Below, in pieces: positions 3,050 to 25,322 of a stretch of DNA of 25,986 nucleotides; position 1 is the stretch's first letter; every line of letters begins with the position of its first letter. A program made the position numbers and the translations under genes. The notes under the pieces are model-generated. The model saw nothing but the letters and a program-made list of their open reading frames with translations. It was not told the DNA's origin and did not search any database. Location of the stretch: the IMG/VR virus record IMGVR_UViG_3300025174_000099, positions 1 to 25,986 of that record; one strand, 5' to 3'. The DNA is from a virus.

Positions 3050-5083
3050 CTATTCTCTCAATCTGTTCGTGCCCTGAATGGCGGCGGTTTTTGCTATTTC
3101 GGTTTTCAGGAATTCATCCAAATCGGATAAAAGATTTTTGCCCATAGTTTGCAATCTGGAAGGAAGCCTGCTGATTACTTCGGCCGCGCGAGATGGATTG
3201 GCGGCGATGTCAGCGGCAATTTTGTTTACTTCCTTATCGCCTTCCCTGCCGCTGATTCGCATGACCCATTTTGCAATCATATTTGGGGTCCACAACATCT
3301 GCGGCAAACTTTCCATTTTCCCCGTTACTGGGTTGACTGCGCCTGGAAGATTAACTTCCTTCGCCATTCTCCCTGCCATGGCTTCTCTTTCCAATTCACG
3401 GGTTACTTTATTGACCAGCATCGTTTCATTCGGCAATAAAATATCTTCCAATTTCGCGTATCGTTGCGATCCCGTTGCTTTCTTGAAAGTCTTCGGAATA
3501 TCTCTGGTAGCATTCAAGAATTGTGTCGCTCTTTCTTCCCCTTTTGGCCCCGTAAGAATATTCGCCAGTGTATCCCTGGCCTTAGTGCGATTCAGAATCT
3601 CCGAAAGCCGCTTGTGTTCCTGCCGGGCAAAATCATAAGCCTTGGATTTGGCTCCAATCCATTTTACAAGTTCCCCTTGCGTTCTTGCCAAGGCTCTGGC
3701 CTCGGAAGCGCCGATGCCGAATTGTTCTGGATTTTTTATCACGTCATCGAGCGCCATTTTTGTAAAATGGAGAGATTCAATAGGATATTTCGCGCCAATT
3801 TTGAATTGTTTGCCGTCTTTGACAGCCAAATCCTTGGCGCGACCAAGAATTTTAGGCGTATCGTTTCCAAATTTATCGAAAATTGTTTGCAATTCTCGGT
3901 CTGGAGTTGCCGTATGAGGAATTTTCTTTCCATCTATAGTTCTATAAAACGCCTTGTCGTAATTCTTCGCCGCCGCAATTGTGCGCTCTAGCAGCGCCGA
4001 TTCCGCCGATGTGCCCTTGGCGATATTCTCAATAGCACCTTTTCGGATTTGTTCTTGTGCAGCCTCGATACTACGAAGTTTGGTGGTTGTCTCCGGCAGG
4101 CTTGCAAGTTCTTCCTGCAAACGCACCACCGGTCCACCGAATCTTTCGCCCTTGCCGATATTCCCCGCCGCTATCGCCTCGGCAGAAGTCGGTTTATTTA
4201 ATATCTTCTCTGCTTGTAACAGTGATTTAACCGTCTTTCCCGTGGCTTCTTCTCCGCCTTCCTTGGCGATGGATTGGAAATGAGCTTCGGCTATTTTTTG
4301 CGGACCTGTCTTAGTATGAAGACGCGCGGCGTCTCTCAAAGTCGAATAAATCTTACCGCCGATCTTTCCCGTCCCCTTGAGAAGTGAAATTAGTGTAGAC
4401 GCCGCCACGGGGACAGCCGCGCCGATCCCGGTCTGAATTCCTTTCTCATTAAAGAAATCCTCGCCACCTGAAGTTACTGGGATAGTAAGCGCCGCCGTGC
4501 CGCCGCCCGTAAGCATCCTCCCGACAGTGCGACCTGTCAGGGAAGGGGCTTGTTCTGAAATGACCTTAGGCAAAGCTCCGGCTATGCTTTTATAGGCCAT
4601 CGTTCCAGGATACAAAGAACCAAGAAGCCCGGCTATATCCCATTCCTCTCCCACCGGCCTTCCCGATCTTGCCGCCATGGCTTGGCGTTTTGCGGCCTCC
4701 AATCCACCTAAAGTTTGATTAAGCCCCCCCGCGCTCAGAAGAGGCTTCCCGCCGGTATGTATGCCCAGCTTCTTTTTAACCAGCCGACTTAAATCGGTAG
4801 CTCCGGATATATCAGCCAGTTTTTCACCTACATTCGCCCCCAGTTGGATGGGGGCCATAAAGGCTTGATAAGCCCCCAACCCCGCGCGAGCGATGGGGGA
4901 AGCCAGAACAGGATAATCGTCAACCGGCTTCCCCCCCTTAAAAAGGGACATGACTTGAGATGACGTTATCTGGGGACGCATCTTCATCAAGTCCTCGGTG
5001 GACATGGAAGATAGCTCTGTCAGCGATGCTTCCTCGCGCATCTTCATCAAGTCCTTGGTGGACATGGAAGATAGGTCGGTCAT
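3050..5083 (-). CDS. Large internal / DNA-ejection virion protein candidate
   Basis: 677 aa. The start overlaps the preceding stop (ATGA). The N-terminus holds two copies of a short motif, LSSMSTxDLMKM, at residues 4-15 and 24-35, encoded by a 60-bp tandem duplication. Residues 70-250 are rich in Gly and Ala with moderately hydrophobic helices (for example ARAGLGAYQAFMAPIQLGAN). The remainder is a long, charged, helical region. Large helical proteins in this position, between the head-completion genes and the tail fibre, are generally ejected with the DNA and form the trans-envelope channel (as P22 gp7/gp16/gp20 do). No lytic transglycosylase motif was found. The role is inferred from position and composition. 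Confidence 0.6.
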   Translation of the reverse strand: MTDLSSMSTKDLMKMREEASLTELSSMSTEDLMKMRPQITSSQVMSLFKGGKPVDDYPVLASPIARAGLGAYQAFMAPIQLGANVGEKLADISGATDLSRLVKKKLGIHTGGKPLLSAGGLNQTLGGLEAAKRQAMAARSGRPVGEEWDIAGLLGSLYPGTMAYKSIAGALPKVISEQAPSLTGRTVGRMLTGGGTAALTIPVTSGGEDFFNEKGIQTGIGAAVPVAASTLISLLKGTGKIGGKIYSTLRDAARLHTKTGPQKIAEAHFQSIAKEGGEEATGKTVKSLLQAEKILNKPTSAEAIAAGNIGKGERFGGPVVRLQEELASLPETTTKLRSIEAAQEQIRKGAIENIAKGTSAESALLERTIAAAKNYDKAFYRTIDGKKIPHTATPDRELQTIFDKFGNDTPKILGRAKDLAVKDGKQFKIGAKYPIESLHFTKMALDDVIKNPEQFGIGASEARALARTQGELVKWIGAKSKAYDFARQEHKRLSEILNRTKARDTLANILTGPKGEERATQFLNATRDIPKTFKKATGSQRYAKLEDILLPNETMLVNKVTRELEREAMAGRMAKEVNLPGAVNPVTGKMESLPQMLWTPNMIAKWVMRISGREGDKEVNKIAADIAANPSRAAEVISRLPSRLQTMGKNLLSDLDEFLKTEIAKTAAIQGTNRLRE
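4976..5083 (-). repeat. 60-bp tandem duplication at the 5' end of the large virion gene
   Basis: Two copies of a stretch of about 48 bases begin exactly 60 bp apart, at 4977 and 5037 (plus-strand landmark GCATCTTCATCAAGTCC). They differ at few positions over about 40 bases. Translated, they give two copies of LSSMSTxDLMKMR separated by 20 residues. The near identity at nucleotide level points to a recent in-frame duplication. Confidence 0.9.
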
Positions 5084-6072: not shown

Positions 6073-7053
6073 CTATGGATACCAAGTTGATGTCGCTGAA
6101 GATTGGCTTCTATCGAGGGAACCATCATCGTTATAAGATTTTTGGGTGTACCAATCTCCTATATTCTGCGCCATCCCGCCGTAGATATTTCCTTGTCGGA
6201 TCGCCGCCGCGCCCCTGACAGAACCGGCATTAGTCAAAAGATTACCGATGTTTGCGCTGGTACGACCGCCCGTATCGCCAAGATATTGCCCGGTTGTCTG
6301 CCCAGTGCCGGAGATGCCGGCCAAGCGATTCAAAGTCCTTTCTTGATCGCCGTAGAATCTATTATAGGATTCCCCGGCTTTCTGTCCGGTATAGTCGGTT
6401 CCGAATCGTGACAGTTCTTTCAGCGTCGCGCCGGATTTTCGCGTGCCCCTGGCTCCGGTCATACGATCAATGGCTTCGGTTCCCAAGTCCAATCCCGATT
6501 GATAAGACGACTTGGTTATCGGATCATCCCAAAAATCCGCCAGGGTGAATTTCTTGTTCAGTGCGCCGAAATCGGCTTCATCTTTAAGGCTCTCAGCAGC
6601 GGTCCTTTTATAATTCCAGTCCTTCAGTGCCGCGTCGTATCCAGCTTGGTCAAATTTTCTTTCATAATCTGGGGCGGCATAATTCATTATAAAGCGACCG
6701 TGCTGCCGGTTATATTCTTCCTTTGCCGCTTGATCCAAAATATTCCAATGTTCGGGGGAAATTCCTCCTCCCGCGCTGGTAAACGATTCCCGTGATGGCT
6801 CCCCACCCAAGGCGGTCAAAGCCTGATCCTTGGCGGAAAATCCAGGAAGACCGAGAAGTTGAGACATTCGCGTAAGGCCCGCCCGTCCGGAAGTCAACCA
6901 TGGGGCGAGATTCGCTTGTGTCTGGTCGTATTGTCGTCTTTGTTCCTCGATGGCTTCCTTGGAAGCGCCCGTCATCGCCGACGAAGCATCATCGGCGGCG
7001 TCGCCCGCGATCATCCCGCCGACGATTGTTCCTACCAATGAACCCCAAGGCAT
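6073..7053 (-). CDS. P22 gp7-like DNA transfer (ejection) protein
   Basis: 326 aa, with AGGAGG eight bases before ATG. The N-terminus is a short Gly-rich hydrophobic stretch (SLVGTIVGGMIAG, residues 5-17), followed by a charged helix (EAIEEQRRQYDQTQ) and LAPWLTSGRAGLTRM. The central and C-terminal parts carry a signature I associate with short-tailed phage DNA transfer proteins: FWDDPITKSSYQSGLDLG, ARGTRKSGATLKELSRFGTDY and FNRL/NRLAGISGTGQT. These proteins leave the virion with the genome and help form a channel across the envelope. It is first in a run of three putative ejection-protein genes. The family call is from conserved pattern, the mechanism from knowledge of P22. Confidence 0.75.
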   Translation of the reverse strand: MPWGSLVGTIVGGMIAGDAADDASSAMTGASKEAIEEQRRQYDQTQANLAPWLTSGRAGLTRMSQLLGLPGFSAKDQALTALGGEPSRESFTSAGGGISPEHWNILDQAAKEEYNRQHGRFIMNYAAPDYERKFDQAGYDAALKDWNYKRTAAESLKDEADFGALNKKFTLADFWDDPITKSSYQSGLDLGTEAIDRMTGARGTRKSGATLKELSRFGTDYTGQKAGESYNRFYGDQERTLNRLAGISGTGQTTGQYLGDTGGRTSANIGNLLTNAGSVRGAAAIRQGNIYGGMAQNIGDWYTQKSYNDDGSLDRSQSSATSTWYP

Positions 7054-7054
7054 A

Positions 7055-7564
7055 TCAGCATCCTCCTGTTGCGATCTTATTCAAGAATCGCCGCGTTACA
7101 TCGTGATTCACGGTAAGTTTGTCGAATTTCGGTTGCATTTCAATTTCCTTCAACAGGGCATGCCGTTCAGCATCGAATGGCAATTGTAAAAGTGTTTCGT
7201 GGATGAAATCAGGACGATCAAATAAATCAGTCCATGGTAGATGAATGGCTTCGATGGATTCCAGTTTCAAGATAAAATCAATGTCCACTTCGGGGAACCC
7301 CAGATCAGAGAGAGATTCGTTGATTTCGTTTATATCACGATGCAGCACGATTTTTCGCGCCGGATGTTTATTCACCCATTCCGGAAATAAAGCCAACCCG
7401 GTGCAAGAAATTCCAAGGTGTTTTTCTGTCTGGATTTCATCCAATTCCGTATAGTGTCTGGTGAACAACGGGTCGTGTAGACACAGGGTTGTGTCCGTAG
7501 TCAACCAGTTAGCACACCATGTACTGCCGCATCTCGGCGCACTCAATACCATAAATTCAATCAT
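7055..7564 (-). CDS. Small sulfotransferase-like P-loop protein
   Basis: About 169 aa. The protein opens with MIEFMVLSAPRCGSTW; residues 9-16 form a PAPS-binding 5'-phosphosulfate loop typical of the sulfotransferase fold. A second expected element, the 3'-phosphate-binding Arg...Ser pair, appears as LHRDINEINESL (R76 and S84). The protein is shorter than cellular sulfotransferases (usually 250-300 aa), as are related small phage proteins. ATG at 7564 is chosen over 7576 because the first 16 residues align with the remnant at 8159. The start overlaps the HNH stop at 7557 by eight bases. The likely reaction is sulfo-group transfer from PAPS to an unknown acceptor, possibly a surface polymer or host metabolite. 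The substrate is unknown. Confidence 0.75.
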   Translation of the reverse strand: MIEFMVLSAPRCGSTWCANWLTTDTTLCLHDPLFTRHYTELDEIQTEKHLGISCTGLALFPEWVNKHPARKIVLHRDINEINESLSDLGFPEVDIDFILKLESIEAIHLPWTDLFDRPDFIHETLLQLPFDAERHALLKEIEMQPKFDKLTVNHDVTRRFLNKIATGGC

Positions 7565-8078
7565 GTTTTTTAACATTTTCGTGATATTGCTTATTGTAAT
7601 GAGAAACGCAAAGACCTAGTTTTCTAGATGAATTTTCACATCCATTTATGGAGCACATACTGGCATATTTTCTATATTGCCTTCCCTTGCTTACCTTATC
7701 GGCAACATTCTCACTATTTGATCCCAAAAAAAGATGATCAGGATTAGTGCATTTTCTATTGTCGCATTTATGTAAAACATGCATCCCAGGCAAAATACTA
7801 CTTATGTGTAATATCCAAGAAGCTCTGTTTCCTGTCATCCATTTCCCATCGAAAAAAAGTGCTGCATAGCCATTGCTATTAATTTTTTTAGACCAATCCC
7901 AACACCCATCTTTTACTATTACTGAATTATAAAAACGTTGCTTTAGAGAAAGCCCCTTAGCTTGTAAAACAATATCGGGATTCCCGTGTCGTTTAAGCCT
8001 GCGGTAATGCATATCGCACATTTTTAATCTTGATGAGTTCTTTTCGCATCCATAAACGCTGCATTGGTAATCTTTCAT
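7557..8078 (-). CDS. HNH homing endonuclease (free-standing) with two flanking zinc-finger-like motifs
   Basis: About 173 aa from ATG at 8078, chosen because AAGGAG lies six bases upstream; the frame is also open back to 8159, which would fuse it to a sulfotransferase remnant. The core is an HNH_3-type nuclease: GYAALFFDGKW, then VLHKCDNRKCTNPDHL (H103, C105, C110, N112, H115) and LGSNSEN. Similar finger motifs flank it: C6...C11...C21..H24 at the N-terminus and C142...C147...C157..H160 at the C-terminus. It would nick or cut DNA at a specific site and so spread itself. The gene is visibly richer in A+T than its neighbours, a sign of separate origin. Its stop overlaps the start of the intact sulfotransferase-like gene. 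Confidence 0.92.
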   Translation of the reverse strand: MKDYQCSVYGCEKNSSRLKMCDMHYRRLKRHGNPDIVLQAKGLSLKQRFYNSVIVKDGCWDWSKKINSNGYAALFFDGKWMTGNRASWILHISSILPGMHVLHKCDNRKCTNPDHLFLGSNSENVADKVSKGRQYRKYASMCSINGCENSSRKLGLCVSHYNKQYHENVKKHD

Positions 8079-8099
8079 GGCGCACTCCTTAGAAAGTAA

Positions 8100-8159
8100 G
8101 CCATTATTATACCAAGTCGTGCCGGAACGCGGGGCGGCGAGCAACATGAATTCAACCAT
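8100..8159 (-). pseudogene. 5' remnant of a sulfotransferase-like gene, interrupted by the HNH gene
   Basis: The first 16 codons from ATG at 8159 encode MVEFMLLAAPRSGTTW. This aligns with residues 1-16 of the intact sulfotransferase-like protein at 7564: 11 of 16 residues are identical and the others conservative. The similarity stops right after the P-loop Trp codon, and the HNH ribosome-binding site follows. A GAGGGG ribosome-binding site precedes this ATG, so the original late-operon start site seems to be kept. DNA identity between the two copies is about two thirds, so they are not a fresh duplication. The frame continues into the HNH ORF, so a 200-residue fusion could be made. Confidence 0.75.
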
Positions 8160-8165
8160 AGCCCC

Positions 8166-8540
8166 TCATTGTTGAAAAACGATGATTCGATAATTTTGCG
8201 ATCCAGGGTCAACCGCGCCGATACTATAGTTCACCGCCCTAATCGTCACGACATCATCAGCCGTCACGGATCCATCCAGAATGACCCCGTTTACCGCCGT
8301 GGCCGGTCTTACGATCAAAGCGTCTCCCGATCTTACGCCAGTGATCGTCGCCGTGGTGGTCGCCTGGGATTGTGCCGCTATTGACCCAAAATCATAAGTC
8401 AGGACGCCGGTATAAGTCCTGGTCCACCCAAACAGGGCCAAAAATACCTGTGTCATCCAATTCCCCCAGGGCCTCGGCCATATCACCGTTTCTTTCCTCG
8501 TCGAAATCTGACTCGCAAGGGGGGGGGCATTGATGGTCAT
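8166..8540 (-). CDS. Small beta-rich virion-type protein
   Basis: About 124 aa. ATG at 8540 overlaps the preceding stop (ATGA) and has GAAGG upstream; a longer frame to 8612 lies inside the gp10-like gene and is rejected. The N-terminal 50 residues include a WPRPWGNWM motif. The rest, from VLTYDFGSIAAQ to NYRIIVFQQ, has the alternating pattern of a beta-sandwich: TATITGVRSGDALIV, DDVVTIRAVNYS. This pattern is frequent in small phage structural proteins placed after gp10 homologues. No catalytic residues are evident. A run of nine C at codons 5-7 is unusual. Function unknown. Confidence 0.7.
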   Translation of the reverse strand: MTINAPPLASQISTRKETVIWPRPWGNWMTQVFLALFGWTRTYTGVLTYDFGSIAAQSQATTTATITGVRSGDALIVRPATAVNGVILDGSVTADDVVTIRAVNYSIGAVDPGSQNYRIIVFQQ

Positions 8541-9943
8541 CCGGATACCTTCATCGCCGCGTATGTAATTACCACCTTGATCGGATCGGTTATCCGTATC
8601 TTGAACAACCAATCACTTCCAAGTCCCAGCCGTCTCCATACGACCCTGGTTAGATATTTCCCAATAGCACCGATGGAGGTCCAAAGTTCATTCCCCCACG
8701 TATGGCCGTTATCGCGGCTTATTTGAAGCATGGCTTGGGGGTTCACGCCCTGTCCAGCCGCCAATCCCACGCCGGTTTCCATGTCAACAAACAATTCATT
8801 TATGATCATGGGATCGCCGTTCTTAAAAATATGCCGCCCAATGATCTCCCGCGCGATGGCGACGCCATTATCCGTATATGTACCTGGACTAAGTTCATAT
8901 ATATCGCCCGTGGCATAATCCGCGATCAGGGATTTATTCAAATAATCCAAACACATTTCCCCACGGTGCCTGTCTCCCGAAAGCCCATATTCCAATGCAC
9001 TCCACATTCCGGTGGATGCATCATAGAGCCAGGATTTTTCGGAGGTCGGGAAATTGAGCTGGTACATCGGATGACCGTTCAGCATGTAAGAATACCCAGT
9101 AGCGGCGGCGACATCGGAATAATTATTTATTATAAAATCCAATTCCTGAGTCGAAACAACCTTGGGAGCATATCCTTGAAAAAACATGACATGCGCTTGT
9201 CCTTGCTTGGATTTCATCAAGGCAATTAGACCGGAATTGAATTTTGCAAGCGACCATCTGGCGACCAGTCCGAATTCCTGCGTTGCCCCCTTAATGGGTT
9301 GAAATGGGAAATCAGACGCGCCGACATTCGCCCAAAATTCCGTCGTGCTTTTTCCAAAGAGAGGAATTTCACCATTGTCGGAAATGATCCGGACTATTCC
9401 GTCCGGATTTGATTCAGCGGTGGCAAAAGCCAGCGCATTCCAAGTCGCTCCATCCGCCGAGATGAAAAATTCATCAGATTCTCCGTCATCGGCGATAAAT
9501 TGCCCATCCAGCCAAGCACAGGTTTTTGCGATTTGCGGGAATCCCGCCGCCACGATTTGCGCGAACGTCGTGGTAGCGACGGTATATGTGTATCCATTGG
9601 TTCCGGTAGTCAATAAAATAACCGAACCGTTATAAGCCAAGTCCACTCGTCCGGTAGTGGTGCTAACAGTGCCTCTTGATGTTTTCGCTCCGGCATTATT
9701 GACTTCGTAAAACGTACCTTGATGAACAAGGTAATATAAATCACCGGCGGCAATCCAACCTCGAATCGGCGTATTCCCCAACGAACTCCCGGCCCTCAAA
9801 ATCAATCCAGGAGTACCATGAAAAATCAATCTGGATTTTTCCGCATCCGGGTCTATCTCGGCATATAAATTAAGATGTCGCTGAGCCGTGGAGACAACGG
9901 ATTTTCCTTCTTGATTGGCTCTAAAAAGCGGGACAATGGGCAT
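8537..9943 (-). CDS. P22 gp10-like packaged DNA stabilisation / tail needle-hub protein
   Basis: 468 aa, close to P22 gp10 (472 aa). The start at 9943 shares one base with the gp4-like stop (TAATG); GGTGGG precedes it. Recognisable segments are an N-terminal PLFRANQEGKSVVSTAQRHLNLYAE, a central LFGKSTTEFWANVG, QGYAPKVVS, and the C-terminal HTWGNELW and VVWRRLGLGSDWLFKIRITDP. In P22 this protein joins the tail machine below gp4 and closes the filled head so that DNA does not leak. Gene order (gp4-like then gp10-like) matches P22. It acts in virion assembly in the cytoplasm. Confidence 0.9.
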   Translation of the reverse strand: MPIVPLFRANQEGKSVVSTAQRHLNLYAEIDPDAEKSRLIFHGTPGLILRAGSSLGNTPIRGWIAAGDLYYLVHQGTFYEVNNAGAKTSRGTVSTTTGRVDLAYNGSVILLTTGTNGYTYTVATTTFAQIVAAGFPQIAKTCAWLDGQFIADDGESDEFFISADGATWNALAFATAESNPDGIVRIISDNGEIPLFGKSTTEFWANVGASDFPFQPIKGATQEFGLVARWSLAKFNSGLIALMKSKQGQAHVMFFQGYAPKVVSTQELDFIINNYSDVAAATGYSYMLNGHPMYQLNFPTSEKSWLYDASTGMWSALEYGLSGDRHRGEMCLDYLNKSLIADYATGDIYELSPGTYTDNGVAIAREIIGRHIFKNGDPMIINELFVDMETGVGLAAGQGVNPQAMLQISRDNGHTWGNELWTSIGAIGKYLTRVVWRRLGLGSDWLFKIRITDPIKVVITYAAMKVSG

Positions 9944-17821: not shown

Positions 17822-20092
17822 TCAGTTCAACGTGGACTCGGAAGCCACCGGATTACCGGCCTCGTCATAAATCAGCCGGCGGGGGGCCGTCACGACCTGA
17901 GCTACTCTATCCAGGGCTTCCAGAACTGCTTTTTGGATGGTTTCAGCGGACTGCGTGTTTTCCAGCGATTCTTTTTGAAGATCGTTTATTTCCTTCAGTT
18001 TGGCGTCCAGTTGCGCCTTCAGTAAATTGGCTTCCGCAGCCGCGATTTCTTTTTCGGATTCCAGCGTGGCGGATTTGATTTCGAATTCTTTTTCCGCAAG
18101 TTTCTTTTGCAGCGCGAACAGGGATTTTTCATTTTCGATTGAAGCCATGATCGTATTCAATTTCTCAACCTCTTGCTGGACCCTGGACATCGCGTCTTTT
18201 GCTTTTTGCTCCGCTTCCCGAGACTGTTGTTCTTGCCCCGCGATCATTTGGGACTGTTCTTGAATCTGTTGCATAGCGTTGTTTATTTCCGCCTCTTTTT
18301 GTCCCAGCATTTGAGTCGCCTGCTGAATTTGCCCTTTTTGTTTTTCCAGATTATTCGGTTCTTCGTCTTTCAATTCCGGAGGAAGCATTTTTTTGAATCG
18401 CTCGGAAATCTTCTCCGCGCCCGGCCAATCCTGAGCCTTGAAGATAATATCTCCGAATTGCGACATGAATTCCTTGTTCCCACGAGAAATCTCCATCATG
18501 GCATCGGCGGATTCGAGTCTTCGGGTCGTGTAGGAGGGACCGGCGACTATCGTCACGTCATATTTTCCGACTCCGAGATTATAGATTTTTTGAATCTTTC
18601 CGTTGATGGATTTTTCAGCGGAAGGGACTGGATTCCCGTTTTCGTCCGCGAGACTCGAATCAATCATGGCGTTGCTCAATTCACCGTCCTCGCCGATGAT
18701 GCGGGCGATTTTCTTGGTATCGTAAATCTTCGGAATGATGTCAACGATGTCCTGCCCGGTTCTCCGGAGGGTTCTCGCAAAATTATCCGAAAAATGGAAA
18801 CTTCCGGTATCCCCCTCGCGGTTTCTAGCCTGAATGGCCTTGCCGGAAGTCTCATTCGACGGCGCCCCAAGAGTCGCGTTATAGCGCCCCATCGAAGCCT
18901 GGATATTGTGTTCCGACTGCTCCATAACGGACAGCCATCCGGTACTGACTCCGGGAGGTGCTTCACGCCGTGGCGCGCCGACCAGAACGCCGTCCACGGA
19001 GACGGGCTTATACGGAAGAACCGAGATGTTTCTTCGATTCGCGGACTTCCATAAATCGGCGTTATCCTCCACCTGCCCGACGGCGGCGACATAGGACGCC
19101 CTCGGAGCTAAGGCGACGTTTTCAATGAAGGCCGAAACCGCGTAATTATCTGCCCGTTGCGCGTCCATCGCCGGCCGGATAAGGCCGGAACGCAAGATTT
19201 TGCCTTCGACATCCAGTTCGTTACCGATGACCTCATAGATGGGAATGGAGTCTCCTATCCATTCCCCATCTTCGAGGATTTTCGTGGCGGTCAGCTTTCT
19301 CCAGCGAATTTTTATCTTCTCGCTTTCACGTTCAGCCTTGATGGGGGCTCCGGGAAATTCGTGTTCTTCCCCTATTGACCCGTCTTCCAGAAGAACGATC
19401 TTTATTTTCGTTCGTTCTTTCCAGAAATATTCCGCGTAGATAACCCAGTCACCGCCATACCATTCGGTGAATTCTTTTCCCTCGGTCTCGAATCCCTGAA
19501 GGGCGTCCTTGCCTTTCACGCCGAATTCAACCTCGAAGTCTTTCTTCGGGACTTTGTAAAGAATGAAACCGTATTCCGCGTCAGAGCCGTCCGGCTCCTG
19601 TCTTTCCGGAGACAAATAGGTGGAAAACCTGTTTCTTATTCGCTTGATCTTGATTTCCTGATCAAAGGATTTCGGATCGCTGTACTCCGTCAGGATTCTC
19701 CAAAACCCGAAACCGCCGTCCACCGCGCATTCAAAGGCCGTGTCATAAGCAACATCCGCCCTCGACCTGTCCTGGATGTGTCTCAATATTCCGTCGTAAA
19801 TTCTGGCGACCTCGATGTCCCCGCCATCGTCAACGGGTCTGACCTTGATCTGTGGACGATTTTGCCGTCCGTCGTTGACAACCTGCATGATGTGTTGATT
19901 GAGCTTATCAACGACAAGGCACGGTCTTTTCCCCTCCGGGTCGTTTTCGCGCTCCGCTCTAACCTGTTCATCCCATTGCTTGAGATCGCGGAAATCGAGA
20001 GCCTCCCGCGCCCGCGCGTGATTCTCCCTGTCGGCCTCGACACAACGGCTGTATCGGTCACGAACAAGTTTCAGGAAATCTTCTTCTTCCAT
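17822..20092 (-). CDS. Portal protein, P22 type
   Basis: About 756 aa (P22 gp1 is 725). ATG at 20092 overlaps the terminase stop (TAATG) with GGATGGG just upstream; a TTG at 20104 is the alternative. P22-portal segments are clear: ALDFRDLKQWDEQVRAERE, RPCLVVDKLNQHIMQVVNDGRQNRPQIKVRP, AFECAVDGGFGFWRI, and the later GAPSNETSGKAIQARNREGDTG. The dodecameric ring forms the packaging and exit vertex. The C-terminal part, about residues 590-720, is Gln/Glu/Lys-rich and strongly coiled-coil, matching the barrel that projects into the P22 capsid and responds to DNA pressure. It follows the terminase gene. Confidence 0.95.
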   Translation of the reverse strand: MEEEDFLKLVRDRYSRCVEADRENHARAREALDFRDLKQWDEQVRAERENDPEGKRPCLVVDKLNQHIMQVVNDGRQNRPQIKVRPVDDGGDIEVARIYDGILRHIQDRSRADVAYDTAFECAVDGGFGFWRILTEYSDPKSFDQEIKIKRIRNRFSTYLSPERQEPDGSDAEYGFILYKVPKKDFEVEFGVKGKDALQGFETEGKEFTEWYGGDWVIYAEYFWKERTKIKIVLLEDGSIGEEHEFPGAPIKAERESEKIKIRWRKLTATKILEDGEWIGDSIPIYEVIGNELDVEGKILRSGLIRPAMDAQRADNYAVSAFIENVALAPRASYVAAVGQVEDNADLWKSANRRNISVLPYKPVSVDGVLVGAPRREAPPGVSTGWLSVMEQSEHNIQASMGRYNATLGAPSNETSGKAIQARNREGDTGSFHFSDNFARTLRRTGQDIVDIIPKIYDTKKIARIIGEDGELSNAMIDSSLADENGNPVPSAEKSINGKIQKIYNLGVGKYDVTIVAGPSYTTRRLESADAMMEISRGNKEFMSQFGDIIFKAQDWPGAEKISERFKKMLPPELKDEEPNNLEKQKGQIQQATQMLGQKEAEINNAMQQIQEQSQMIAGQEQQSREAEQKAKDAMSRVQQEVEKLNTIMASIENEKSLFALQKKLAEKEFEIKSATLESEKEIAAAEANLLKAQLDAKLKEINDLQKESLENTQSAETIQKAVLEALDRVAQVVTAPRRLIYDEAGNPVASESTLN

Positions 20093-22110
20093 TATCCCAT
20101 CCAACCGACGTGTTGATTGTTGTAACTGGGAGATTGTCTGCCTGTTTCTTTCTTTTTTTCCATCGGCCAGATCAGGGTCAGGTCGGGTTCGCAGATGCGA
20201 GACAGCGAATCCAGCCCGTCTTCGTGCATCCCCACCGGAAACGCCATGTATTCCTCCTCGATGAAGGATCGCACCAGATCAATCGGAGTGCGCTCCCAAT
20301 TGGTGACATACATGGATTCCGGCAGCCAGATTCTCCCGGCCACGAATAGCGGGATCAGGCGCTTGATGCGATCCGATTTGGATGTCTGGCCGCCGACTTC
20401 CGTGATTCCAAAGCGATAGTTTTCATACTCCATGCGTGAATGAAGATGTTCTATGTCCGCCATCATGCCATATTTTTCATAACGCACCTGTTTCGGTTTG
20501 TATTTTCTGTGGGCCTCGAAAACCCTGTCGCCGCGTTCCTTGAGATTCAATCGGTCCCGGACGATGGGGATACAATAATAATTTTCATCCCGTCCCAGCC
20601 CGACGGCCCAACCCGCCGTGTAATCACTAGATCGTTTCTTTGAATTGGCGGCGTCGAAAAGAAGATACCAATTCAATTCCTCCATCTTGATCGTTTGATA
20701 AGTTCTCAACCATTCCCGCTTGAACCCCTGCAAGGCGTCGGCCTTCGGTCGTAGAAGAACCTGCGCGCTATATACATATGGTCCCATGTCCCGTCTTTTC
20801 CGACGGTGTACATCTTCCGTCCAGAACACCGATTCGCCGTCTTCCGTCCCCCCGATACGTCCGGGATGCTCCCGCACAACGGCGGTTTTTCGTTCCGCAA
20901 TGGTCCCGTAGGCGTCGTTGAAGTGCCAGCGGGTGCCGGCGAATCTTCTTTTTCCGGTAGCCGTTCCAAGCGAATACGACTCCTCCAGGCGAGACATGGT
21001 TTTGGAGATCATCTCCGGAGTGCTGACCGACGCCTGCACCACGATGTCGTCATACAGCAACACCTTGAAATGTTTGGATACCGGCTGTCCGTCGACCAAC
21101 CCCCAGGCCTCGACCGTCGCCTCGTTCGGATTGGATTTCCTCCTGACGATGATTCCATCGTCTTCCGCCCACTTCGGAGATTCCTTCAAATTCTCCCCCC
21201 ACAGAATATCCGGGAAAGCTCCCTGCAAAACCCTATTGGTCTCCAGTTCGCGCATGATCTGTCTGAGAAAAGCCTTGGCTATGGGCCGAGTATGACTGAA
21301 AATCCCGAAAGTGATTTCAGGGTCTTTCAGAATATCTTGAATGGTCAGCCCAAACGTGATTATCGAGCTGTTATGCGTCGGGACCAATTCACGGCCGGCG
21401 ACGTACATCCCACCAACCACTTGGATGCAGCGAGTTGGCACAGAAGGTACTCGCTCGATCTTCTGCACCACACGATCGAGTAAATACGGATCAATGGAAA
21501 GATTCGCCCTGGCAAACTCCAGTGGGGCGCTTGTCCCAACGTCCAGCCTTCCACCGATTGCAATCATATCGGCGGTGCTCGCAATGTATTCCTCGAATTC
21601 AACCAAATCGTTGTTTGCAACGCGGCGCCTGATCTTGCGGCGCAATCTCCACAGGTGCCCCGCCCCGGCCACGATCCTGGCACCGTCGCTGAACGTAATT
21701 TCGTAACATTCCGATGTCGTGTATCTGTCCGAAAGCGCAATGACCGGAACGTCCTTGCCGCTCGGAGCGAAAACCCGGTCACCAATCTTCAATTCGCCGT
21801 GCGTTGTCCAACCGCGATTTGCCGTAAGCATTGGCGTGTAATCAGCTAGGTCCTTATAATGCTCCCGGGACCAAAGATCCAAATAACCATCCGGCCCCTT
21901 CTCAATCTCCCTGACCCGGCTAAAAGCGAAGTCATTCAACATATCCTTCCGGCCACAAACCCGAACCAGCAGATAAAACAAATCCGACAGACACAAGAAC
22001 CTTACCGCTTGCGGTAGTTTATTCGTCTTTCTTCCTTCCTCCTCCACAAGGTCCCAGTAGGAAATCACTTTCCCCATCGAAAGAGAACGCAAGCGAGCCG
22101 TCAATTCCAT
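20092..22110 (-). CDS. Terminase large subunit interrupted by a class 3 mini-intein
   Basis: 672 aa as translated; about 511 aa once the intein (residues 87-247) is removed, a normal size. Extein parts: DLWSREHYK before and SSIITFGLTIQDIL after the intein join to a WxREHYKS-type Walker A loop of the P22-like terminases. Walker B is VLLYDD (350-355). Nuclease-domain acidic residues are likely in LLFDAANS (D486) and HEDGLDSLS (D631/D634). The enzyme drives ATP-dependent DNA packaging and cuts concatemers. AAGG lies five bases before ATG. Because the intein splits the ATP-binding loop, the unspliced protein should be inactive. It is followed by the portal gene with TAATG overlap. Confidence 0.95.
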   Translation of the reverse strand: MELTARLRSLSMGKVISYWDLVEEEGRKTNKLPQAVRFLCLSDLFYLLVRVCGRKDMLNDFAFSRVREIEKGPDGYLDLWSREHYKDLADYTPMLTANRGWTTHGELKIGDRVFAPSGKDVPVIALSDRYTTSECYEITFSDGARIVAGAGHLWRLRRKIRRRVANNDLVEFEEYIASTADMIAIGGRLDVGTSAPLEFARANLSIDPYLLDRVVQKIERVPSVPTRCIQVVGGMYVAGRELVPTHNSSIITFGLTIQDILKDPEITFGIFSHTRPIAKAFLRQIMRELETNRVLQGAFPDILWGENLKESPKWAEDDGIIVRRKSNPNEATVEAWGLVDGQPVSKHFKVLLYDDIVVQASVSTPEMISKTMSRLEESYSLGTATGKRRFAGTRWHFNDAYGTIAERKTAVVREHPGRIGGTEDGESVFWTEDVHRRKRRDMGPYVYSAQVLLRPKADALQGFKREWLRTYQTIKMEELNWYLLFDAANSKKRSSDYTAGWAVGLGRDENYYCIPIVRDRLNLKERGDRVFEAHRKYKPKQVRYEKYGMMADIEHLHSRMEYENYRFGITEVGGQTSKSDRIKRLIPLFVAGRIWLPESMYVTNWERTPIDLVRSFIEEEYMAFPVGMHEDGLDSLSRICEPDLTLIWPMEKKKETGRQSPSYNNQHVGWMG
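21370..21852 (-). mobile_element. Class 3 mini-intein in the terminase Walker A motif
   Basis: 161 codons, residues 87 (Asp) to 247 (Asn) of the terminase ORF. Block A is YTPMLTANRGWTTHGELK-IGDRVF; block B is VAGAGHLW (H152, W154); block F begins RCIQV (C228); block G is PTHN followed by Ser. There is no Cys or Ser at position 1. W in B12, C in F4 and T in G5 form the WCT triplet that defines class 3 inteins, which splice through the block F Cys. No DOD or HNH endonuclease blocks are present between B and F, so this is a mini-intein. The start residue is placed by the block A spacing and by extein continuity. Confidence 0.9.
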
Positions 22111-24401: not shown

Positions 24402-25322
24402 ATGAACGACAGCCTGACTATCAGCACATTTCAGCTTTTCAAGCTGTTCCCCGACCAAGAATCGGCGCGGCTCTATTTGGAGTCGCGCCTTTGGCCGAAC
24501 GGCGTGAAATGCCCAATCTGCGCCAGTGGCGAACGTGTGACGAATCGCAAGGATGGCTATTACCGTTGCAATGCCTGCCGCGAGGATTTCACCGTTCGCA
24601 CCGGCACTATTTTCGAGCGGTCGCATGTTCCGCTGCAAAAGTGGGTTTATGCCATGTACCTGCTTGTAACGAGCCGTAAGGGCATTTCCTCGCTGCAACT
24701 GTCCAAGGAGATCGGCATCACCCAAAAATCCGCGTGGTTCGTCCTGCATCGCCTGCGTGAGGCGTGCGGCGATGATCTGGCCAAGCTGCAAGGCATCATT
24801 GAAATTGACGAAACCTATTTTGGCGGCAAGGAGGCGAACAAGCACACCGTAAAAAAACTCAATGCCGGGCGCGGCGCAGTCGGTAAGGCTGCGGTGCTCG
24901 GCATGCGTGAGCGCGGTGGCAAGACGATTGCCACGCCGATTGCCGACGTGAACCTGGACACCGTACACCGTGCAATTCATGCGCGTGTTGCGGTTGGCTC
25001 GACGCTGCACACCGACGAGGCGACGGCTTACAGTGGGCTTGATGGCCTGTTCTTCCGCCACGAAGCGATCAACCACAGCGGTGGGGAATACGTGCGCGGC
25101 AACGTCACGACCAACAGCATCGAGAGCGTGTTCGCGGTCATGAAGCGCGGGGTACTCGGCGTTTACCACCACACCAGCCGCAAGCACTTGGGCCGATACG
25201 TCAACGAGTTTGCGTTCCGGCTGAATGACGGCAACGTGAAGCGGCACACGCTGGAACGCCTCGATAGTTTCGTGTGTGCGACCGTTGGCAAGCGCATCAC
25301 CTACAAGGCGCTGACGCAATGA
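24402..25322 (+). CDS. IS1595-family transposase (ISXO2-like)
   Basis: 306 aa, a full-length member. Residues 37-59 form an N-terminal zinc ribbon (CPIC...CNAC, Cys 37, 40, 56, 59), followed by FTVRTGTIFERSHVPLQKW, a family hallmark. A helix-turn-helix-like segment (ISSLQLSKEIGITQKSAWFVLHRLR) precedes the catalytic domain. The domain has EIDETYFGG (D136), LHTDEATAY (D205) and VTTNSIESVFAVMKRG (N238/E241), then the C-terminal HLGRYVNEFAFRLN. It would cut and join the IS ends. No frameshift or stop is seen. The gene overlaps the small ORF behind it by ATGA. Confidence 0.96.
   Translation: MNDSLTISTFQLFKLFPDQESARLYLESRLWPNGVKCPICASGERVTNRKDGYYRCNACREDFTVRTGTIFERSHVPLQKWVYAMYLLVTSRKGISSLQLSKEIGITQKSAWFVLHRLREACGDDLAKLQGIIEIDETYFGGKEANKHTVKKLNAGRGAVGKAAVLGMRERGGKTIATPIADVNLDTVHRAIHARVAVGSTLHTDEATAYSGLDGLFFRHEAINHSGGEYVRGNVTTNSIESVFAVMKRGVLGVYHHTSRKHLGRYVNEFAFRLNDGNVKRHTLERLDSFVCATVGKRITYKALTQ

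Follow-up and report, generated by a model that had tools for sequence, protein, structure and literature searches.

We analyzed a 25,986-nucleotide stretch of DNA from an uncultured tailed-phage contig (IMGVR_UViG_3300025174_000099; the whole stretch is referred to here as the window), in which the gene for an HNH endonuclease lies between a short 5' stub of a sulfotransferase-like gene and a complete copy of that gene. The late genes of the window are encoded on the minus strand, in the order terminase, portal, major head protein, Hc3, a 124-amino-acid protein, the stub/HNH/sulfotransferase region, and an ejection-type protein. The stub (MVEFMLLAAPRSGTTW; positions 8112 to 8159) is 48 bp long, comprises codons 1 to 16 (ATG GTT ... 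ACT TGG) with the TGG codon last, and keeps the native distance to the gene upstream. It is followed by the left end of the insert, which serves as the HNH leader (8079 to 8111), by the HNH gene itself (7557 to 8078; 173 amino acids), and by the intact sulfotransferase-like gene (7055 to 7564; 169 amino acids), the first 48 bp of which form the regenerated start (MIEFMVLSAPRCGSTW; 7517 to 7564). The HNH stop codon (TGA, 7559 to 7557) falls within an 8-bp overlap with the sulfotransferase start (ATGATTGA; 7557 to 7564), whose ATG is at 7564. An initial annotation, made from these letters without database searches, had already placed the stub, the HNH gene and the intact gene within positions 7055 to 8159 and had described the overlap, and rechecking on the minus strand confirmed both. 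Stub and HNH gene share one frame and together form a joint 200-amino-acid open reading frame (ORF; 8159 to 7557).

The two starts proved to be diverged versions of the same sequence. They agree at 32 of 48 nucleotides (29 of 45 after the ATG), which is the roughly 67% DNA identity reported initially, and at 11 of 16 residues (10 of 15 after the methionine). This repeat is above chance, both in a tblastx comparison of the locus with its own flanks (E about 5e-6) and in its score of 64, compared with a maximum of 49 upon shuffling (111 loci). The stub-HNH-gene structure is not a single-contig artefact, because three further IMG/VR contigs carry the same layout at 99.9% identity; the samples may be related. 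The HNH and sulfotransferase genes are separate ORFs, with neither an intron nor an intein around the HNH gene, and a scan against Rfam for an intron or other structured RNA at the locus gave no match at E<=5. Group I introns often house HNH genes, and one could imagine that an intron, bypass or trans-splicing joins the stub to the later part of the gene; nevertheless, no group I intron core is present by the Rfam scan, and the downstream copy has a start of its own and is complete, which leaves nothing to join; we give this explanation virtually no chance. No evident ribosome-binding site (RBS) was found ahead of the intact start, for which an in-frame ATG at 7576 provides an alternative. Since the new start lacks a clear RBS and overlaps the HNH stop, the intact copy is probably translated by coupling to that stop.

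The HNH gene is AT-rich, with a GC content of 35.8% compared to 51.6% for the window, and carries its own RBS (AAGGAG, 8090 to 8085), both as initially annotated. Its product matched Pfam HNH_3 (5e-8) and also zf-His_Me_endon, both above the cut-off, as well as a PHROG HNH family (1.8e-27), placing it among the HNH_3/His-Me finger nucleases. The H..C..C..H core, which is invariant among eight HNH relatives, is intact, and Cys/His motifs are present at both the N and the C terminus. The best fold matches of its AlphaFold model, which is weak outside the core, were I-HmuI and I-PpoI, and these matches were themselves weak. The RBS lies within a predicted leader hairpin (8076 to 8104; -11.2 kcal/mol, z -2.56) that covers it and pairs the HNH start codon; similar hairpins precede the HNH genes at two other loci, L232 (1865 to 1935; z -5.1) and L250 (z -2.5).

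The interrupted gene encodes a P-loop protein that matched phrog_10855 (1.9e-51). Its P-loop RSGTTW and the invariant R75...S83 conserve both the 5'-phosphosulfate-binding (5'-PSB) P-loop and the 3'-phosphate-binding (3'-PB) R(x7)S motif. The AlphaFold model (pLDDT 90.7) has sulfotransferases among its best PDB fold matches (TM about 0.5 to 0.58), beside other P-loop kinases, and a Pfam scan of the protein gave no sulfotransferase family match. We thus call the protein sulfotransferase-like, by motif and modeled fold and without a curated family match. The gene also occurs in Nipunavirus, Pamexvirus and Bradleyvirinae (PP203295, JQ067089 and others), at quite different genome positions, and is mostly annotated as "hydrolase" in those records.

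To decide which of the two starts is native, we compared the window with its relatives. The nearest one, the contig locus L055 (about 76% amino acid identity), lacks an HNH gene and has an uninterrupted single sulfotransferase gene in the same place, within the same gene order: Hc3 (76%), the 124-amino-acid protein (69%), one sulfotransferase, and the ejection protein. Another relative, L005, likewise has one copy in this exact place and no HNH gene. The single start of L055 (VEFMLLAAPRSGTTW) is identical to the stub at 15 of 15 residues and at 37 of 45 nucleotides, with all differences synonymous, whereas the regenerated start (IEFMVLSAPRCGSTW) agrees with it at only 10 of 15 residues and 30 of 45 nucleotides. 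Among 77 homologues, L055 was the best match for both the stub and the body of the intact gene, while for the regenerated start it ranked about 17th of 58 distinct starts. The question raised in the initial annotation, whether the start in HNH-less relatives would match the remnant or the intact copy, was answered in favor of the remnant, and this comparison shows the stub to be the native allele. The same comparison bore out the proposal that the host gene had been regenerated rather than destroyed, as a complete copy stands behind the HNH gene and the stub is a native start of the L055 type.

The body of the intact gene behaved differently from its start. Residues 17 to 45 agree with L055 at 27 of 29 positions and the whole gene is 74% identical in amino acids, compared with 69 to 77% for the flanking genes. 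The best amino acid match to the regenerated start (14 of 15) was found in L118, which belongs to another lineage and agrees at only 14 of 26 positions over residues 17 to 42. This suggests that the intact sulfotransferase is a hybrid gene with a donor-derived start on a native body, though the extent of the foreign tract at this gene is uncertain. The entire downstream sulfotransferase might instead have arrived together with the HNH gene, leaving nothing of the native gene except the stub. Its GC content of 44.4%, lower than that of the window and of the L055 orthologue (49.9%), fits such a replacement of the whole module, but a body as close to L055 as its flanks is what a native body would show; we consider the replacement possible yet rather unlikely.

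Two different starts in succession could also be the remains of tandem paralogous sulfotransferase genes, the first of which was destroyed by an HNH insertion that spared its 5' end. HNH-less relatives with such tandem genes, which the initial annotation had named as the outcome that would contradict it, were not seen: in 77 homologous viral loci we found neither a second copy nor a stub, and no nuclease of the types tested lay next to the gene. All 77 loci are single-copy, and so is this exact place in L055 and L005; in a separate set of 48 phage records the gene occupies 50 places in total. Tandem paralogy is therefore hardly tenable. No other sulfotransferase locus in viral contigs had an adjacent HNH gene; three loci were found in bacterial genomes, one of which (L225) has an HNH-like match more than 1 kb away.

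We additionally surveyed the flanks of about 190 related HNH genes for a same-strand peptide repeated before and after the nuclease, without preselecting any target gene. Scoring was done by an ungapped search with shuffled nulls, which replaced tblastx of 1.2-kb flanks because the latter was too noisy in GC-rich contigs. A clear, interpretable excess over the shuffled controls was observed only at the window locus and at a single further target gene, which encodes an SF2 (ResIII/DEAD) helicase and is located behind a gene for a YqaJ/Cas4-type exonuclease. A further candidate, L162 (score 62), was a GC-rich match that looks like low-complexity noise, and was set aside.

We fetched 80 helicase loci by similarity to a query of the lineage denoted here as A. 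Invaded loci consist of the exonuclease gene, a stub of 16 to 20 codons, a nuclease gene, and a complete helicase gene that begins at the nuclease stop. All stubs are of the "RTID[QE]L" type, as in uninvaded helicases of lineage B, and all helicases behind stubs belong to lineage A ("RAL.ML..WFEKN"). A nuclease lies between stub and gene in 17 of 17 stub loci, and no nuclease-free locus has a stub; read descriptively, 37 of 46 A-lineage loci have an adjacent nuclease, compared with 0 of 25 B-lineage loci. Empty-site relatives are represented by L282 to L306. Among cultured phages no helicase closer than 60% was found, and the A-lineage scar loci described here come from uncultured contigs only.

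Pairwise comparison of invaded and uninvaded loci revealed a mosaic. L234 and the uninvaded L303 share 56 of 56 stub nucleotides and 94% of the upstream flank. Over the first ~1 kb of the L234 helicase gene, identity to L303 drops to 49 to 73%, with 79 to 97% to the A-lineage L235, and from about 1.08 kb it returns to 92 to 94% to L303 for most of the remaining length. L232 has the same mosaic structure relative to L287/L282 and switches at about 1.0 kb. From these switches in identity we therefore conclude that the invaded helicase gene is a natural chimera, its foreign tract having its left edge at the end of the stub and its right edge inside the gene. What comparison of these loci shows is native flank, native stub, a foreign nuclease, a foreign 5' part of ~1 kb, and then native gene again. 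Hence the initial proposal that the element brought a 5' end from a diverged relative holds clearly at the helicase loci and is suggested at the sulfotransferase gene.

Nucleases of one type all join the stub at the same left junction even though the stubs differ: after TGGTT for type hnA (8 loci), after TATGCG for type hnB (6 loci), and after GACCAGC for the GIY-YIG nuclease (2 loci); an Endo VII-like nuclease has a stub at 1 locus. These fixed junctions lend indirect support to the predicted site-specific cleavage of the uninterrupted allele. Stubs at the helicase gene thus accompany nucleases of no fewer than three types (HNH_3, GIY-YIG and Endo VII-like); at L243 (1780 to 2510), L278 (1700 to 2510) and L274 the nuclease is of the Endo VII-like HNH or the GIY-YIG type, again with a native stub. 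Several unrelated nucleases would, then, appear to have the same target, the first 20 codons of a single phage gene. The helicase break lies about 57 nucleotides into the gene, right after a conserved TGG and upstream of the Walker A motif. While the sulfotransferase stub does end right after the P-loop, as initially noted, the accompanying idea that the P-loop is a favored site gains no support from this position. Three nuclease-free loci (L227, L229 and L231) contain the A tract behind a single start, stub-like at its beginning and similar to the new start at its end, which makes them candidates for loci where recombination between stub and new start removed the nuclease.

The helicase loci also bear on the remaining explanations of the sulfotransferase locus. 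Replacement of the whole module gains from them, as the helicase donor tract of about 1 kb is twice the length of the sulfotransferase gene. Had the HNH insertion instead made a 48-bp duplication of its target site, with later divergence of the downstream copy, direct target repeats would flank the insert, as they do. Yet the wrong copy has diverged, the useless stub being unchanged in protein while the working copy has all five amino acid changes, and at the helicase gene stub and new start represent two old lineages whose difference spans 1 kb; such a duplication is improbable. The in-frame stub and the hairpin over the RBS could likewise be taken to mean that no mobility is involved and that the stub is a leader peptide or regulator of a resident HNH protein with another role. 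The sporadic distribution speaks against this, and helicase stub frames run into stops before the nuclease start (hnA, GIY-YIG), so that fusion is not required; we judge this account very improbable.

Taken together, these results make intronless homing with co-conversion, in which the recipient 5' stub is left behind as a scar, the likely origin of the locus. The resemblance to such homing drawn initially is upheld by the empty-site relatives, the lack of an intron, and the same architecture at the helicase loci. Several observations weigh against this reading. An agreement of 30 of 45 nucleotides is not unusual for these genomes, as 35% of 15-codon windows are as low, and the start spans only 48 bp, for which testing for a mosaic on DNA identity alone gave no significant result; moreover, 3 of 10 close homologue pairs likewise agree at no more than 10 of 15 residues at the start. 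Donor origin of the new sulfotransferase start is therefore not proved, because the segment is short, its identity lies within the range of the flanks, and close pairs vary alike. A donor phage for it was not found, and L118, the closest in protein, has none of the nuclease types searched for. The helicase loci are related rather than independent and were fetched via lineage A, which makes their counts descriptive. Finally, the HNH proteins of the window and of the helicase site share only about 35% identity, so that the parallel between the two targets lies in architecture.

According to the homing model, a free-standing HNH endonuclease would cut the ancestral phage sulfotransferase gene about 48 bp into its coding sequence, a predicted cleavage that in native genes generally would fall about 48 to 59 bp from the start. 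Repair would use a donor whose HNH gene lies directly ahead of its own, diverged version of the target gene. On the left, the donor tract would end at the break itself, leaving the first 16 codons of the recipient as the stub, and its right edge would be set by homologous recombination in or beyond the target gene, which would regenerate the gene with a donor-derived start. The new copy is probably translated by coupling to the HNH stop, and its diverged start probably resists the nuclease, as its divergence and the association of nucleases with lineage A (37/46 versus 0/25) would indicate. In later rounds of homing, the stub could provide the homology arm on the left. The model predicts that the native start is cut and the new start is spared.

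Whether this is a general mode in phages, which might be called stub homing, seems to us an evenly balanced question. Nucleases of at least three folds would lodge between a native stub, serving as homology arm, and a cleavage-resistant 5' part; each invasion would swap the start for a resistant one, build a chimera and leave a datable scar, and stub/new-start recombination could delete the nuclease while keeping the resistant chimera. The usual view is that free-standing homing nucleases settle between genes, since they cannot splice themselves out. Here, the nuclease would invade a gene that nonetheless survives, as a new start comes with the element, and what is left of the old one records the event. 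At the helicase gene this has happened repeatedly and with unrelated nucleases, and in the resulting chimeras the donor part can be told from the recipient part. The stub scar may thus serve as a molecular footprint by which homing events could be counted in metagenomes.

The immediate neighbors of the locus are the 124-amino-acid gene upstream (8166 to 8540; 68.5% amino acid identity to L055, in which the order is kept), the gene for the Hc3 head-closure protein (8537 to 9943), and, downstream, a PHROG DNA ejection gene (6073 to 7053; order kept in L055 and L005), all on the minus strand. Elsewhere in the window, the ORF of the terminase large subunit (20092 to 22110, minus strand) contains an apparent in-frame intein-like insert (DYTPMLTANRGW...VAGAGHLW...TRCIQV...VPTHNS), which lacks an N-terminal Cys/Ser and may contain a W-C-T motif, as class 3 inteins do. 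An IS1595/ISXO2-type transposase gene (24402 to 25322, plus strand; Pfam DDE_Tnp_IS1595, E 1.9e-44) lies near the contig end, and a 46-bp imperfect tandem repeat (4977 to 5082) at the start of the gene at 3050 to 5083 duplicates "LSSMSTxDLMKMR".

Parts of this arrangement have precedents. Homing endonucleases are found at genetic-exchange boundaries of phage ICP1 (PMC10448857), where HNH_3 nucleases stand at mosaic borders as they do here; the available part of that study does not describe a 5' stub with a regenerated start. Our literature search, of incomplete coverage, likewise found no description of the 5' form in phages. The RBS-covering hairpins of the HNH genes recall the RBS-sequestering hairpin reported for Aeh1 mobE in a study cited by title in PMC2988022. 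T4 mobA, which splits gene 39/60, and Aeh1 mobE, which splits nrdA (PMC2988022), are HNH genes within phage coding regions as well, but their hosts stay in two pieces, whereas here a single complete copy of the host is restored. Among free-standing phage endonucleases, intronless homing is known for T4 SegF, SegG and MobE (PMC2988022). These resemble the present case in a free-standing endonuclease gene located by its presumed target, HNH-less relatives, the lack of an intron, and, clearly at the helicase gene and suggestively at the sulfotransferase gene, target-gene sequence that has given way to the donor allele (co-conversion, marker exclusion). In T4, however, hundreds to thousands of bp separate the endonuclease gene from its cut sites and the target is simply replaced (PMC2988022), while here the endonuclease gene lies at the presumed cut and part of the recipient gene remains as a stub. 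A further likeness is to the mobile ORFs with a foreign C terminus in fungal mitochondria, in Allomyces atp6 and in Glomus atp6, atp9, cox2 and nad3 (PMC3630166), where an endonuclease gene also travels with a diverged copy of the gene end that it displaces, a hybrid gene is regenerated, and the native end is left dead. The phage locus would be the mirror image of these: the 5' end, and with it the N terminus, is supplied by an element with an HNH nuclease and probably coupled translation, and it is the native start that is left dead.
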